Source of the DNA: Candidatus Binatota bacterium
GTDB lineage: Bacteria > Desulfobacterota > Binatia > UBA1149
Reading direction: 5' to 3'
DNA: 57,180 nt
Assembly: GCA_012960245.1 (NCBI GenBank)
Contig: DUBO01000052.1
Location: 577-57,756 of the forward strand
The notes under the pieces were generated by a model. It searched no databases. It was not told where the DNA came from and saw only the letters and a program-made list of their open reading frames with translations. Shown piece after piece: positions 41,894 to 46,544 of this stretch (position 1 is the stretch's first letter; the number at the start of each line of letters is the position of its first letter). Both the position numbers and the translations under genes were made by a program.

Positions 41894-42346
41894 TCAGTCT
41901 AGCTGCAGGTAGCTGCCCTCGGCCTCCGACCAGGCAAATACAGCCTCGGCCCCGGGCTTGCCCTCCTGCACGGGGATCACGACCTGCAGGGCCTCTGGGT
42001 AGGAGGGTTCGCCGAAGGGGGTGGCCTGGGCCACATCTTCCTCGGAAAAATAAGCCTCGTGGTCCGGGTGAGAGTGGTAAAAGGCCACCAGCCGCCAACC
42101 GGGCCCATCGGCTTTTTCCAGCGCCTGGCGCAGCTCGCCAGCGTCCCCCACGTAGGCCGTCCGGGCCGTTCGGGGGTAAGCCACGGGGTCAACACGGTGC
42201 ATTTCGTCCTGCACGTTGCGAATCGGCACCACCTCAAGAGCCCCCTCGGGCGAGGCCAGTACCAGCCCACAGCACTCGTCTGGGTAGCTTCGGGCGGCGT
42301 GATCCTTCATGGCCAGCAGCCCTTCGGGCTCCAACCGGGTCACCAT
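41894..42346 (-). CDS. JAMM/M67 (JAB1/Mec-type) metallopeptidase
   Basis: About 150 residues from ATG 42346 (an in-frame ATG at 42391 is also open). The JAMM zinc site is complete: Glu24 in PDECCGL, then His91 and His93 in YHSHPDHEAYF and Asp104 in SEED, with the HxH-x(10)-D spacing exact. Small bacterial members of this family remove C-terminal tails from ubiquitin-like sulfur carriers (QbsD on QbsE, Mec+ on CysO). There is no adjacent carrier gene here, but a tailed MoaD lies about 4 kb away. Confidence 0.88.
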   Translation of the reverse strand: MVTRLEPEGLLAMKDHAARSYPDECCGLVLASPEGALEVVPIRNVQDEMHRVDPVAYPRTARTAYVGDAGELRQALEKADGPGWRLVAFYHSHPDHEAYFSEEDVAQATPFGEPSYPEALQVVIPVQEGKPGAEAVFAWSEAEGSYLQLD

Positions 42347-42372
42347 CGCGCCCCGTTCCCGAGTTGGCCACG

Positions 42373-42401
42373 TTGACGGATTTGTCGGCATTCCATATAA
42401 C
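42373..42401 (+). promoter_or_regulatory. Sigma70-type promoter for the PEPCK-like gene
   Basis: TTGACG (42373-42378), 17-base spacer, TATAAC (42396-42401). This is a near-consensus promoter with the start codon 33 bases beyond the -10 box. It also argues against a longer start at 42309 for the gene, since that start lies upstream of the promoter. It overlaps the JAMM gene on the other strand. Confidence 0.75.
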
Positions 42402-42434
42402 TTGCGAGTTTACATCTTCCGCAGGGGCACACTA

Positions 42435-44483
42435 ATGACGAGCGACACCAACGCATCCACAAAAATTGAACTCTTTCTCAAGCCCAAGGCTGTCTCATCG
42501 AGAAAGCTGGCGCGCGACGCCGAGGGCCGCCTGCTGCTGGCAGAGGAAAGCGCCATTGACCGCGATCGGACCCGCAACGCCGGCATCACCATAGCCGAAC
42601 TCGGCCGCCGCGTGCGCGTATTCAACTCGGATATGACCAAGCAGATGGCCTCTTACCTCGTGCCCGCCGAGCTCACAGAGTTCTCCGATGGTGCAGCCGA
42701 TCTCTCGGGCGTGACCAAGACGCAGATCGGCCGCCTGCTATGGCTCGACGGCCTCTACATCCGCCACAACCCCGGCCTACGCGAAGTCGGCATCAACGAC
42801 CGCGGCGATGTGATCCTGCGCCTTGACCTCGAGACAGCCGAGGACCCGACCATTGGTCCGCTGATGAGCTCTTACAACACCACCCAGTCAACGCTCTCCT
42901 CGCGCCTGGTTGCGCGCATAGACAAGAAGAGCCACGACCGCGACGTGAAAGAAGCGCGAGCCTGGCTCGAGGCCATGAACGTGCTGACCGGCGGCAAGAC
43001 CCTGCGCGCCCGTTTCTTCAGCGGTGGCGTGCAGGCCGAGCATCGTGGCAACGTGCCGCAGCTCTACCGCACCACGCAGGTAAACTTTTTCCAGCTCAAC
43101 GACCCAGTCAACCTCGAACTCGCCGGGGTACTCGAGCAGCGCTTCGAGGCCATGGATCGCCCGGTGCCCATAGTGCGCACGATCTCCGTGGTAGGCATTC
43201 CGCCCAACGAGCGCGCCTACAAGGAATTCGTCAGCCAGCTCAAGGATAAGGACGAGAACCCCATCAAGCTGGGACTGCCGACGAGGCTGCGAGACTCGCA
43301 GTTCTTCGACACCTCGACCAAATCGATTGCCCCCTCGTGCTTTTTCTACGCCTGCAAGCTCGACGACATAGGTGATTCGGTGGTCATAATTGCCATAAAC
43401 ACTGATTACCACGGCGAAATTAAATCCCGTGGCATTCACTCCGGCACCACCGCGGTGATGTCGGTGGCAGAGGTCATCGGCGCCCACGCGTCAAGCGCAA
43501 TACTGTCGAGCAACGGCAACTGCACGGTGTTCATGGGTGGCGACGGCTCGGGCAAAACCCGAGCAGCCACCTTCTGGGCAGAACGCAACATCGACACCCG
43601 GCGCAACGAGCTCAAGCGTCGCTACACCCTGACCTCGGACGAAACCAAGGCCACCGACACAATGAAGAGCGTGGGCTACCTGGCCCAGGACGACTGGATC
43701 AACCTCGTGCCGGCCGGCCAGAACAAAGACGGCAGCGGCAACTGGGACACCTGGCCAACCGAAAGGTTCTTCTACCTTCGCACGCGTGGCCTGCTGAGCC
43801 GCAACCTGGTGCTGTCTGAAAACGAAGCCGTAATCGAAAACCCCATGGCCGACTACGGCGCCGACGGACACCGAGAAGTGTTGGGCCAGTGCACCCACGA
43901 TTACCCGCACGAGCGTCTCTTCTACGACCCCGACTGGGATATTTTTTACTGCGACCGCGACGTCCATAAGCTCGGCCTCATAATGCTGCTCGAGGACGAC
44001 CCCGACCTCGACTTCGTGATCCGCAGGCTCAGGCCCACCCAGGCTCTCGACTTCATAATGAAAGGCCGCGCGGCGGACGGCAGTTTTCAACCCTTCTATA
44101 ACGACAGCTCCGACGTCTCCTCGCTGCTCATCGGCCAGGGCGTGACCGGCGACCGCCTGCTCGACGCGCTTAAGGCGGCGCGCAGGGGCGACGTGGCGGC
44201 GCTGATGAATGGTGACGAAGCGCTGGGAGCCTTCATCCTCGACAGAATCGAGCGCATGGTACTGCTCTACAAGCACCTGCTCTCCGACGTGCCGGTGTAC
44301 GTTCTCAACGCGGCCGAGGCGGGGCCCGACCTGCTGCAGGACATGGCTTGGTACTGCTCGGAAAACCCTGATTCTCTCAAGCCCGGCCGCGAGAAAACTG
44401 TTGTCCAGGCGGTGAGCCTGATGGAAAAAGAGTTTGGCGTGACCTACGACGACAACGGGCTCTGGAGCCACCTCGGTAAATAA
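42435..44483 (+). CDS. Large PEPCK-like P-loop protein of unknown function
   Basis: About 682 residues from ATG 42435. Central P-loop GGDGSGKTRAATFW follows SSAILSSNGNCTVF, a layout like the kinase loop of ATP-dependent PEP carboxykinase (and related HPr kinases) rather than of ordinary ATPases. Upstream is IHSGTTAVMSVAEVIGA, downstream SVGYLAQDDWINLVPA. The first 330 residues have no motif I know; they include a GVTKTQIGRLLWLDGLYIRH stretch and Arg-rich strands. The PEPCK catalytic residues cannot be assigned with certainty. No membrane segment or signal. It stands alone with its own promoter; the next gene converges from the right (44526). Confidence 0.7.
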   Translation: MTSDTNASTKIELFLKPKAVSSRKLARDAEGRLLLAEESAIDRDRTRNAGITIAELGRRVRVFNSDMTKQMASYLVPAELTEFSDGAADLSGVTKTQIGRLLWLDGLYIRHNPGLREVGINDRGDVILRLDLETAEDPTIGPLMSSYNTTQSTLSSRLVARIDKKSHDRDVKEARAWLEAMNVLTGGKTLRARFFSGGVQAEHRGNVPQLYRTTQVNFFQLNDPVNLELAGVLEQRFEAMDRPVPIVRTISVVGIPPNERAYKEFVSQLKDKDENPIKLGLPTRLRDSQFFDTSTKSIAPSCFFYACKLDDIGDSVVIIAINTDYHGEIKSRGIHSGTTAVMSVAEVIGAHASSAILSSNGNCTVFMGGDGSGKTRAATFWAERNIDTRRNELKRRYTLTSDETKATDTMKSVGYLAQDDWINLVPAGQNKDGSGNWDTWPTERFFYLRTRGLLSRNLVLSENEAVIENPMADYGADGHREVLGQCTHDYPHERLFYDPDWDIFYCDRDVHKLGLIMLLEDDPDLDFVIRRLRPTQALDFIMKGRAADGSFQPFYNDSSDVSSLLIGQGVTGDRLLDALKAARRGDVAALMNGDEALGAFILDRIERMVLLYKHLLSDVPVYVLNAAEAGPDLLQDMAWYCSENPDSLKPGREKTVVQAVSLMEKEFGVTYDDNGLWSHLGK

Positions 44484-45579: not shown

Positions 45580-45608
45580 TTGACAGGCGAGGCCTGCAAC
45601 GGAAGAAT
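45580..45608 (+). promoter_or_regulatory. Candidate promoter for the selenoprotein gene
   Basis: TTGACA (45580-45585), 17-base spacer, AAGAAT (45603-45608), 37 bases ahead of the ATG. The -35 box is perfect, the -10 box is weak. Confidence 0.45.
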
Positions 45609-45645
45609 AACGCGTTACAAAAAGCTCCAAGGAGGATGCACCCCA

Positions 45646-46404
45646 ATGGGATCGAAGGCACGTTACGCCTCAGCCATCGTTGCGATCCTTGCCCTTTACG
45701 TGGCTTCCTGCGTTGACCCGCAGGAAGTTACCGACATAAAGGCCAAGGTCGACGAGGTACAGGCACAACAAAAAGACATGATAGGAAAACTGGCAGGCTT
45801 GGCGGCCGGTCAGAAAACAATACTGGCCAAAGGGCCGGCCGCTGCTGCGCGACCGTCCAAGCCCAAGGACGACCCGAACAAGGTCTACCCGGTAAAGAAG
45901 GGCAACTCGTTCTGGAAAGGCGCCGCGAACCCGACCGTTACGGTGGTCGAGTTCTCGGACTTTCAATGACCATTCTGTGCACAAACCACCAGTTTGGTGG
46001 ATCAGGTAGTCAAGGAATTCCCCAACGACGTACAGTTTGTCTTCAAGAACTACCCCCTGCCGTTTCATAAGCAGGCCATGCCTGCCGCGAAGGCTGCTGT
46101 TGCAGCCGGCAACCAGGGCAAGTTCTGGGAGATGCACGACAAGATCTTCGAAAACTACCGGGCCCTGAGCGCGGAGTTCTTCGTCAAGGCCGCCGGCGAG
46201 ATCGAGGGTTTGGACGTTGAGAAGTTCAAGACTGACATGGACTCGCCCAAGACCCAGGCGCTGATAGTCGAAGAGATGAAAGAGGCGGGCACCGTCGGTG
46301 TACGGGGTACCCCCACTTTCTTCATCAACGGCAAGAAGCCCACGGGCCGTTCCTTTGAACAGTGGAAGACCATCATCAGCGCGGAAATCAAGAAGAAGGG
46401 CTGA
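45646..46404 (+). CDS. Selenocysteine-containing DsbA-like lipoprotein (UxxC thioredoxin fold)
   Basis: 252 residues if the TGA at 45967-45969 is read as selenocysteine (U108). ATG 45646 follows GGAGG. LALYVASC gives a lipobox (C22), then a coiled, Lys/Gln-rich linker. The DsbA-type domain starts at TVTVVEFSDFQ-U-PFC: the reading frame, FSDFQ before and PFCAQT after, places TGA exactly where the first Cys of CPxC stands in homologues. Downstream are QFVFKNYPLPFHKQAMPAAK and the cis-Pro loop GVRGTPTFFING (P223). A hairpin with a SECIS-like layout follows the TGA (45986-46000). It should act as a thiol/selenol oxidoreductase at the periplasmic side. A terminator follows the stop. Confidence 0.87.
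45986..46000 (+). promoter_or_regulatory. SECIS-like hairpin of the selenoprotein mRNA
   Basis: CCACC (45986-45990)-AGUUU-GGUGG (45996-46000). The apical loop starts 21 bases after the UGA and has a G in its second position, both within the ranges described for bacterial SECIS elements. The hairpin lies inside the coding part, as expected in bacteria. Function inferred; not tested. Confidence 0.65.
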
Positions 46405-46440
46405 CCTGGTATCTGCCAGGAAGCCCGCTGCGAAAGTGGC

Positions 46441-46476
46441 AAGGCCGGTTCCCCCACGGGAGCCGGCCTTTTTTTT
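46441..46476 (+). terminator. Intrinsic terminator of the selenoprotein gene
   Basis: AAGGCCGGTTCCC / GGGAGCCGGCCTT (46441-46453 and 46458-46470) around a CCAC loop, followed by eight T in all. A strong, classical terminator 36 bases after the stop. Confidence 0.92.
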
Positions 46477-46544
46477 GACCACGTTTCGCACCACGACCTT
46501 CCGTGCCGGTCGTTGTCCGGATGTCTCTCTTGAGCCCGGGCCTA

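Follow-up and report, generated by a model that had tools for sequence, protein, structure and literature searches.

A probable selenoprotein gene for a DsbA-like, predicted lipid-anchored protein in Candidatus Binatota, with Sec and Cys forms among its relatives

DsbA-like selenoproteins with a UxxC motif were reported in 2005 from the Sargasso Sea survey (PMC1088965), where a figure legend shows a SECIS element just downstream for one of them, and DsbA-like and DsbG-like selenoproteins were tabulated in 2006 (PMC1794560). The table of a 2026 review (PMC13188914) lists 'DsbA-like form 1, PF01323' and, under NF041057, 'DsbG-like protein, UxxC'. NF041057 is the NCBIfam model of the Rcas_1661 family thioredoxin-like (seleno)lipoprotein, going by its name a lipoprotein family with Sec in some members. 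The word 'lipoprotein' is absent from PMC13188914 and PMC1794560, and open-access literature searches met no paper on the lipid-anchored subfamily described here. The present protein shares with the DsbA-like selenoproteins a DsbA-like domain with UxxC (PMC1088965, PMC13188914) and is unlike them in its predicted lipid anchor and helical linker and in the alternation of Sec and Cys within one clade. The initial annotation of the gene held a Sec form of a lipidated DsbA to be unusual; this view went too far, since UxxC selenoproteins of both the DsbA-like and the DsbG-like type are on record, as is a model named '(seleno)lipoprotein'. Judged by its sequence, the gene is a well-supported new member of this catalogued kind, for which Sec is almost certain, and a predicted lipid-anchored clade is added to the list of DsbA-like selenoproteins.

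The window (the whole stretch of DNA analysed, 57,180 nucleotides) holds on its forward strand, at 45646-46404, a frame of 252 residues with a single internal TGA at 45967-45969, which is residue 108. The TGA stands in the context FSDFQ-TGA-PFC and replaces the first Cys of CPFC, base for base as the initial annotation had read it; the second Cys, Cys111, is encoded at 45976-45978. The 435 open bases claimed past the TGA are exact for a count that starts at 45970 and includes the stop codon, itself a TGA (46402-46404). If the internal TGA were annotated as a stop, the gene would be cut short just ahead of its active site. The features of the locus are as follows.

45580..45608, + strand: sigma-70-like promoter match (TTGACA, 17 nt, AAGAAT; 10 of 12 consensus positions)
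45629..45635, + strand: ribosome-binding site AAGGAGG, 10 bases ahead of the ATG, read directly
45646..46404, + strand: predicted selenoprotein gene, TGA as Sec at residue 108; Pfam matches, dN below dS 3' of the TGA
45646..45711, + strand: predicted lipoprotein signal peptide with the lipobox-like VAS-C22, from the sequence (Cys22 at 45709-45711)
45718..45828, + strand: linker of residues 25-61, helical and probably a coiled coil; modelled as a single long helix with modest confidence
45901..46380, + strand: DsbA-like thioredoxin-fold domain, residues 86-245 (PF13462; model pLDDT mostly >90)
45967..45969, + strand: predicted Sec108 TGA codon, first position of UPFC, aligned with Cys of homologues
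45984..46002, + strand: predicted SECIS hairpin; core stem 45986-45990/45996-46000, loop AGTTT 45991-45995, outer columns 45984/46002
46441..46476, + strand: terminator-like 13-pair stem followed by a T run, from a terminator scan

The promoter match was the one found in the consensus scan against a shuffled mean of 0.2, and shows resemblance without implying function. A strong terminator had also been claimed; the 13-pair stem with its T run is there, but the scan gave 2 terminator-like sites against a shuffled mean of 1.5, so that it is the length of the stem that supports the claim.

The protein belongs to the DsbA/Thioredoxin_4 superfamily by its Pfam scores, its UxxC motif and the thioredoxin fold of its model. 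It matches Thioredoxin_4 (PF13462) with 97.4 bits (E 1.4e-27, gathering score 23.2) and DSBA (PF01323) with 74.4 bits (E 1.3e-20, gathering score 25.6). The nearest NCBIfam model is NF041057, matched end to end (residues 12-246 against positions 2-246 of 247) and, at E <= 0.001, by all 27 members of the protein alignment, 3 of which also match an alanine-zipper lipoprotein model. The score of 98.2 bits nevertheless falls short of the curated cut-off of 190, which places the protein outside that family as drawn, and its clade is probably a sister group of NF041057. The AlphaFold2 model, built from 27 rows, has a mean pLDDT of 83.8, with a confident DsbA-like domain, a long helix of modest confidence at residues 25-61 and a link of low confidence at 62-71. 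High-ranking matches in the PDB fold search were 3gyk, BdbD of Bacillus subtilis (3eu3), DsbA of Corynebacterium diphtheriae (4pwo) and ScsC proteins. BdbD and C. diphtheriae DsbA, both Cys proteins, share the fold of the catalytic domain and are distant in sequence, with 24% and 28% identity in the fold search. We take VRGTPT at residues 219-224 to be the cis-Pro loop, by family. The leader LYVAS-C22 is hydrophobic and ends in a lipobox-like Cys, as bacterial lipoproteins have it, and by eye a short hydrophobic leader ending in Cys is present at all 30 of the homologous loci inspected. The lipidated DsbA-like protein with a coiled linker that was initially proposed accordingly finds its lipobox-like Cys22 and its long helix, while lipidation and a periplasmic location are inferred.

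Some match to this protein was found in 139 of 145 related genomes. A TGA stands at the same codon, with the downstream frame intact, in at least 18 homologues from at least 17 of these genomes. In 173 aligned stretches over the site, from 110 loci, the codon is TGC in 106, TGT in 40, TGA in 26 and AGC in 1, the lone AGC being a weak match in L062 (L numbers denote loci and G numbers genomes). The Cys expected at residue 108 in homologues is therefore there in 146 of the 173 stretches, and the TGA both aligns with Cys and is kept across other genomes. The 26 TGA rows comprise 17 of this clade and 9 from 7 more distant loci. Downstream of the TGA, dN was below dS in all 7 near pairs, the closest of which have few changes. 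The count of at least 18 stands apart from at least 5 weaker one-TGA matches (G015, G021, G047, G060 and G090; residues about 83-235 only). Across 198 genomes of the phylum, 43 had a match at E <= 1e-45; among the 54 matches listed, 12 had one TGA, 3 of them clade members already counted and the remaining 9 outside that count. For the comparisons below, the aligned Sec set consists of 17 of the 18 copies, the second copy of G012 (L135) having entered the tree only, and the aligned Cys set consists of 17 rows of at least 45% identity from 30 fetched loci, further Cys matches being left out. Among the named relatives, the best 80 of 551 confirmed matches include many Myxococcota and other former Deltaproteobacteria, plus Nitrospirota and others, in a scan that under-samples Sec forms because one of its two peptide patterns requires Cys.

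The hairpin CCACC-AGTTT-GGTGG lies at 45986-46000, and the distances first given for it are exact: the stem begins 16 bases after the TGA, the loop 21 bases after it, and G is second in the loop. As a single sequence it is weak evidence: the segment 45982-46009 folds at -8.2 kcal/mol with 6 of 200 shuffles as stable, but the full 54-base segment is no more stable than its shuffles (z -0.15), and none of 10 Rfam matches over 45646-46500 reached the gathering score of its family. The comparison of homologues is more telling. Across the 17 Sec copies, 89.1% of the cells of the seven-pair stem are paired, where shuffles average 80.9% (0/500 as high), and 9 cells are double-changed, where shuffles average 2.5 (0/500), whereas in the 17 Cys homologues the same columns are 53.8% paired against 53.2% in shuffles. 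The double changes are G-C/A-U at columns 18/36 and C-G/G-C at columns 21/33, each in four Sec sequences, and U-A/G-C at columns 19/35 in one; this outer pair 19/35 is unpaired in 10 of the 17 Sec copies. Two of five covariation measures in these copies, the number of double-changed pairs and the number of pair types, were not above shuffles. RNAalifold drew six pairs in the Sec set and none at those columns in the Cys set. Over the hairpin the 17 Sec copies hardly vary in their codons, which encode (A/T)(S/G)LV, and the Cys copies vary freely, so that the hairpin appears to exact a price in protein sequence.

The legend to Fig. 2 of PMC13188914 gives as limits of bacterial SECIS elements an apical loop of 3-9 nt, an upper stem of 4-16 bp, a G at one of the first two positions of the loop (mostly N1-G-[G/U]-N-N2, where N1 can pair with N2), 16-37 nt from the UGA to the apical loop, and an MFE <= -7.5 kcal/mol. 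The hairpin has a loop of 3 (or 5) nt on a stem of 6 (or 5) bp, the loop A-G-U-U-U with an A-U pair and with G26 and T27 invariant in 17/17, a distance of 21 nt, or 22 with the triloop, and the -8.2 kcal/mol given above for 45982-46009. The SECIS-type hairpin proposed in the initial annotation thus agrees with all four limits in that legend and covaries in Sec homologues. A SECIS model made from the Sec copies scored the site in its own genome at 71.5 bits and the next best at 21.8, although the first value is partly circular because the model was built from these sequences, this gene included. From these alignments, the hairpin after the TGA is a family-specific SECIS.

The source genome is a draft of 2.82 Mb in 60 contigs, 96.1% complete. 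All four genes that the Sec reading called for elsewhere in the genome were found, and with them selB and selC, either of which, if missing, would have told against that reading; none of the three observations named in the initial annotation as refuting it was encountered. The genes selA (531.6 bits), selB (355.8 bits, as a frame) and selD (350.4 bits) lie in a row on contig C50, and tRNA-Sec (selC), with the anticodon TCA, lies on contig C23 (69.2 bits). Of 14 control genomes, 1 passed the cut-off for selA, 2 for selB, 2 for selD and 5 for tRNA-Sec; the last cut-off is therefore lax, and it is the anticodon that counts. At GGUASK the selD gene has an in-frame TGA of its own; its read-through translation scores above the SelD cut-off. 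A PrdB-like frame of the same genome (L156:1352-1711; G000:C25, minus strand) has an in-frame TGA at PIUPFC; this 120-residue piece scores 75.4 bits to TIGR04483, where the cut-off is 300, and was found as a weak match (E 1.9) to the SECIS model of the present family. Weaker matches to that model (L153, L154 and L155) were taken as chance, the TGA being by eye antisense or out of register to a gene-like frame. A search of the genome for formate dehydrogenase gave none over the cut-off and 10 listed matches without an internal stop. The genome thus appears to hold at least three candidate selenoproteins, two from old known families. The selA-selB-selD row, the tRNA-Sec with TCA and the PrdB-like UPFC frame together indicate that the organism decodes UGA as Sec.

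Two other readings of the TGA were weighed. It could be a true stop, the gene for the DsbA-like lipoprotein having decayed, or it could stand for a TGC or TGT misread in sequencing or assembly. Either a nonsense mutation or a wrong base would leave a lone TGA of this sort in a thioredoxin-fold frame, and the genome is a draft in 60 contigs. Neither a pseudogene nor a base error, however, goes with a TGA at this codon position in 18 or more copies from at least 17 genomes, with a frame and a protein constraint kept downstream of it, with compensatory hairpin changes confined to the TGA copies, or with a complete Sec machinery; we reject both, the comparison of homologues having in effect refuted them, and leave this reading practically no weight. 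The UGA could also be decoded by some route other than Sec, through leaky readthrough with another residue or a reassigned codon. UGA followed by C is a leaky stop context, and CAA is the codon before the TGA (45964-45966) in 16 of 17 Sec copies, while among the 17 Cys copies 2 have CAA (Fisher 2e-6) and 15 have CAG. This preference is not significant when relatedness is allowed for (5 independent pairs on the starred branches of the tree described below, median sign-test p 0.25), and the 9 distant Sec rows have CAA in 5, CAG in 3 and GAA in 1. Reassignment of the code was rejected: the gene ends in TGA, so UGA is not generally reassigned. The site is moreover Cys in the Cys homologues, and both the Sec system and the SECIS hairpin are present, which makes decoding by another route very improbable. 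Since the TGA is kept, the SECIS covaries in Sec copies and the Sec machinery is present, we conclude that the UGA is read as Sec; a genuine selenoprotein gene, in which the UGA at 45967 is selected as a sense codon, followed by a SECIS and served by a full Sec-decoding set, is the explanation that we consider highly probable.

If the UGA is so read, SelB with Sec-tRNA-Sec would bind the hairpin and insert Sec at residue 108, following established knowledge. The leader would be cut before Cys22, Cys22 would be lipidated, and the DsbA-like domain would be held off the membrane in the periplasm by the helical linker. Less certainly, the pair Sec108-Pro-Phe-Cys111 would exchange disulfides with exported proteins; Sec would both make the attack and act as the leaving group, and re-oxidation would most likely come from a membrane partner of the VKOR type. 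The protein may instead reduce or isomerise disulfides, with a DsbD-type protein as its source of electrons. Lipid anchoring, the periplasmic site, attack by Sec108 and resolution by Cys111 are all assigned from the family.

Of the periplasmic, lipid-anchored selenol oxidoreductase that had been predicted, the Sec call and the lipobox-like Cys22 stood, while the choice between oxidase and reductase/isomerase rests on analogy. The genome has two VKOR-domain loci and a locus for a DsbD-type membrane domain, and the high structural matches include BdbD and DsbA, which are oxidases, as well as the ScsC proteins, whose helical stalks offer an analogy for the linker. A selenol is a good nucleophile. 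The nearest Sec family is filed as DsbG-like in the table of PMC13188914. We would lean, with less certainty than for Sec itself, towards the oxidase direction and a VKOR partnership, and give somewhat less than an even chance to a protein that has Sec as proposed and is mainly a reductase or isomerase of the DsbG/ScsC kind, fed by a DsbD-type protein and not re-oxidised by VKOR: the DsbD-type domain, the ScsC matches, the DsbG-like filing and the nucleophilic selenol speak for it, and the two VKOR loci and the BdbD and DsbA matches against it. Pfam found no redox-partner family in the nine neighbours scanned, and with neither a VKOR nor a DsbD partner gene among them the neighbourhood favours neither direction.

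The neighbourhood consists of LPG-synthase-TM proteins on both sides, TPR, CbbQ-like AAA and VWA proteins; it is partly recurrent among 20 stretches compared and points to no substrate. A 724-residue frame adjoining the gene (42309-44483) has relatives in 8 of 21 stretches compared, the window included, and only a sub-threshold PEPCK match. Neither a PHROGs scan nor a viral-contig scan, in which 18 stretches matched a pattern and 0 were confirmed, gave a phage link.

As to co-occurrence with Sec machinery, the selA gene exceeded the cut-off in 16 of 17 Sec genomes and in 6 of 13 genomes with Cys forms only, the latter being the genomes of the fetched loci of this clade (Fisher p 0.009, relatedness ignored), and a tRNA-Sec of at least 65 bits in 16 of 17 against 4 of 13. 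The 65-bit limit was set after the scores had been viewed, because matches near 50 bits look like other tRNAs; Rfam's cut-off would add at least G019 (50.8 bits). Two Sec genomes miss a component: in G044 selA was not found and tRNA-Sec is strong, and in G031 selA is present with no tRNA-Sec near the cut-off, perhaps as gaps in drafts.

A tree of 144 rows (27 Sec, 117 Cys), made with the Sec codon and hairpin columns masked, needs 16 Sec/Cys label changes, at least 5 of them forced by starred branches (0/500 shuffles as low). It is a quick, unrooted tree with 61 of 141 inner branches open and rows under 44% (near) or 40% (far) identity left out; as the root was not inferred, gains and losses of Sec look alike on it. 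Four genomes (G004, G006, G007 and G008) have a Cys copy immediately after a Sec copy, and in G004 and G007 the two neighbours are sisters in the tree (support 91 each). In G077, where the search for selA gave nothing, a Cys homologue (L044:1705-1758) has retained the loop GGTTT and 4 of 5 core pairs. None of the other 16 Cys rows has a Sec-type loop, but two of them pair 5/5, so that pairing alone proves nothing for L044, which we treat as a candidate SECIS fossil. According to the 2026 review, Sec-to-Cys changes are rare in prokaryotes (PMC13188914). That the clade records repeated two-way exchange of Sec and Cys, including a Sec-to-Cys reversion at L044 with a decaying SECIS, that the neighbouring pairs in the four genomes are perhaps selenium-replete and selenium-poor versions, and that CAA, as opposed to CAG, before the UGA may be part of the recoding signal, is a tentative and rather doubtful proposal. 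The clade offers a clean, covarying SECIS set, for which in four genomes the adjacent Cys copy serves as a control, and the paired copies in relatives make it a convenient setting in which to study when a secreted bacterial redox enzyme acquires Sec or gives it up.

Several other loci have more than one DsbA-like domain or an N-terminal extension. L096:5509-7119, from the Myxococcales MAG Baikal-deep-G131, is one frame with two DsbA-like domains and a TGA in UPFC in each (6052 and 6682), each TGA being followed by the same 8-pair hairpin (-14.2 kcal/mol); it may be a fusion with two Sec residues and two SECIS elements. L095:1933-3306 is likewise a frame of two DsbA-like domains, with two in-frame TGAs in UPFC/UPYC (2194 and 2872). 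Three DsbA-like domains each, mostly about 640 bases apart, were seen in L053, L055, L056, L060 and L061, from Myxococcota or unclassified MAGs, whose rows in the Sec/Cys tree are Cys. At L084, L086, L089, L109 and L121, from Desulfobacterales, Nitrospirae, Desulfuromonas, Desulfofustis and a Deltaproteobacteria MAG, a DsbA-like domain with TGA in UPYC follows an N-terminal extension that by eye resembles repeats of the beta-propeller type.
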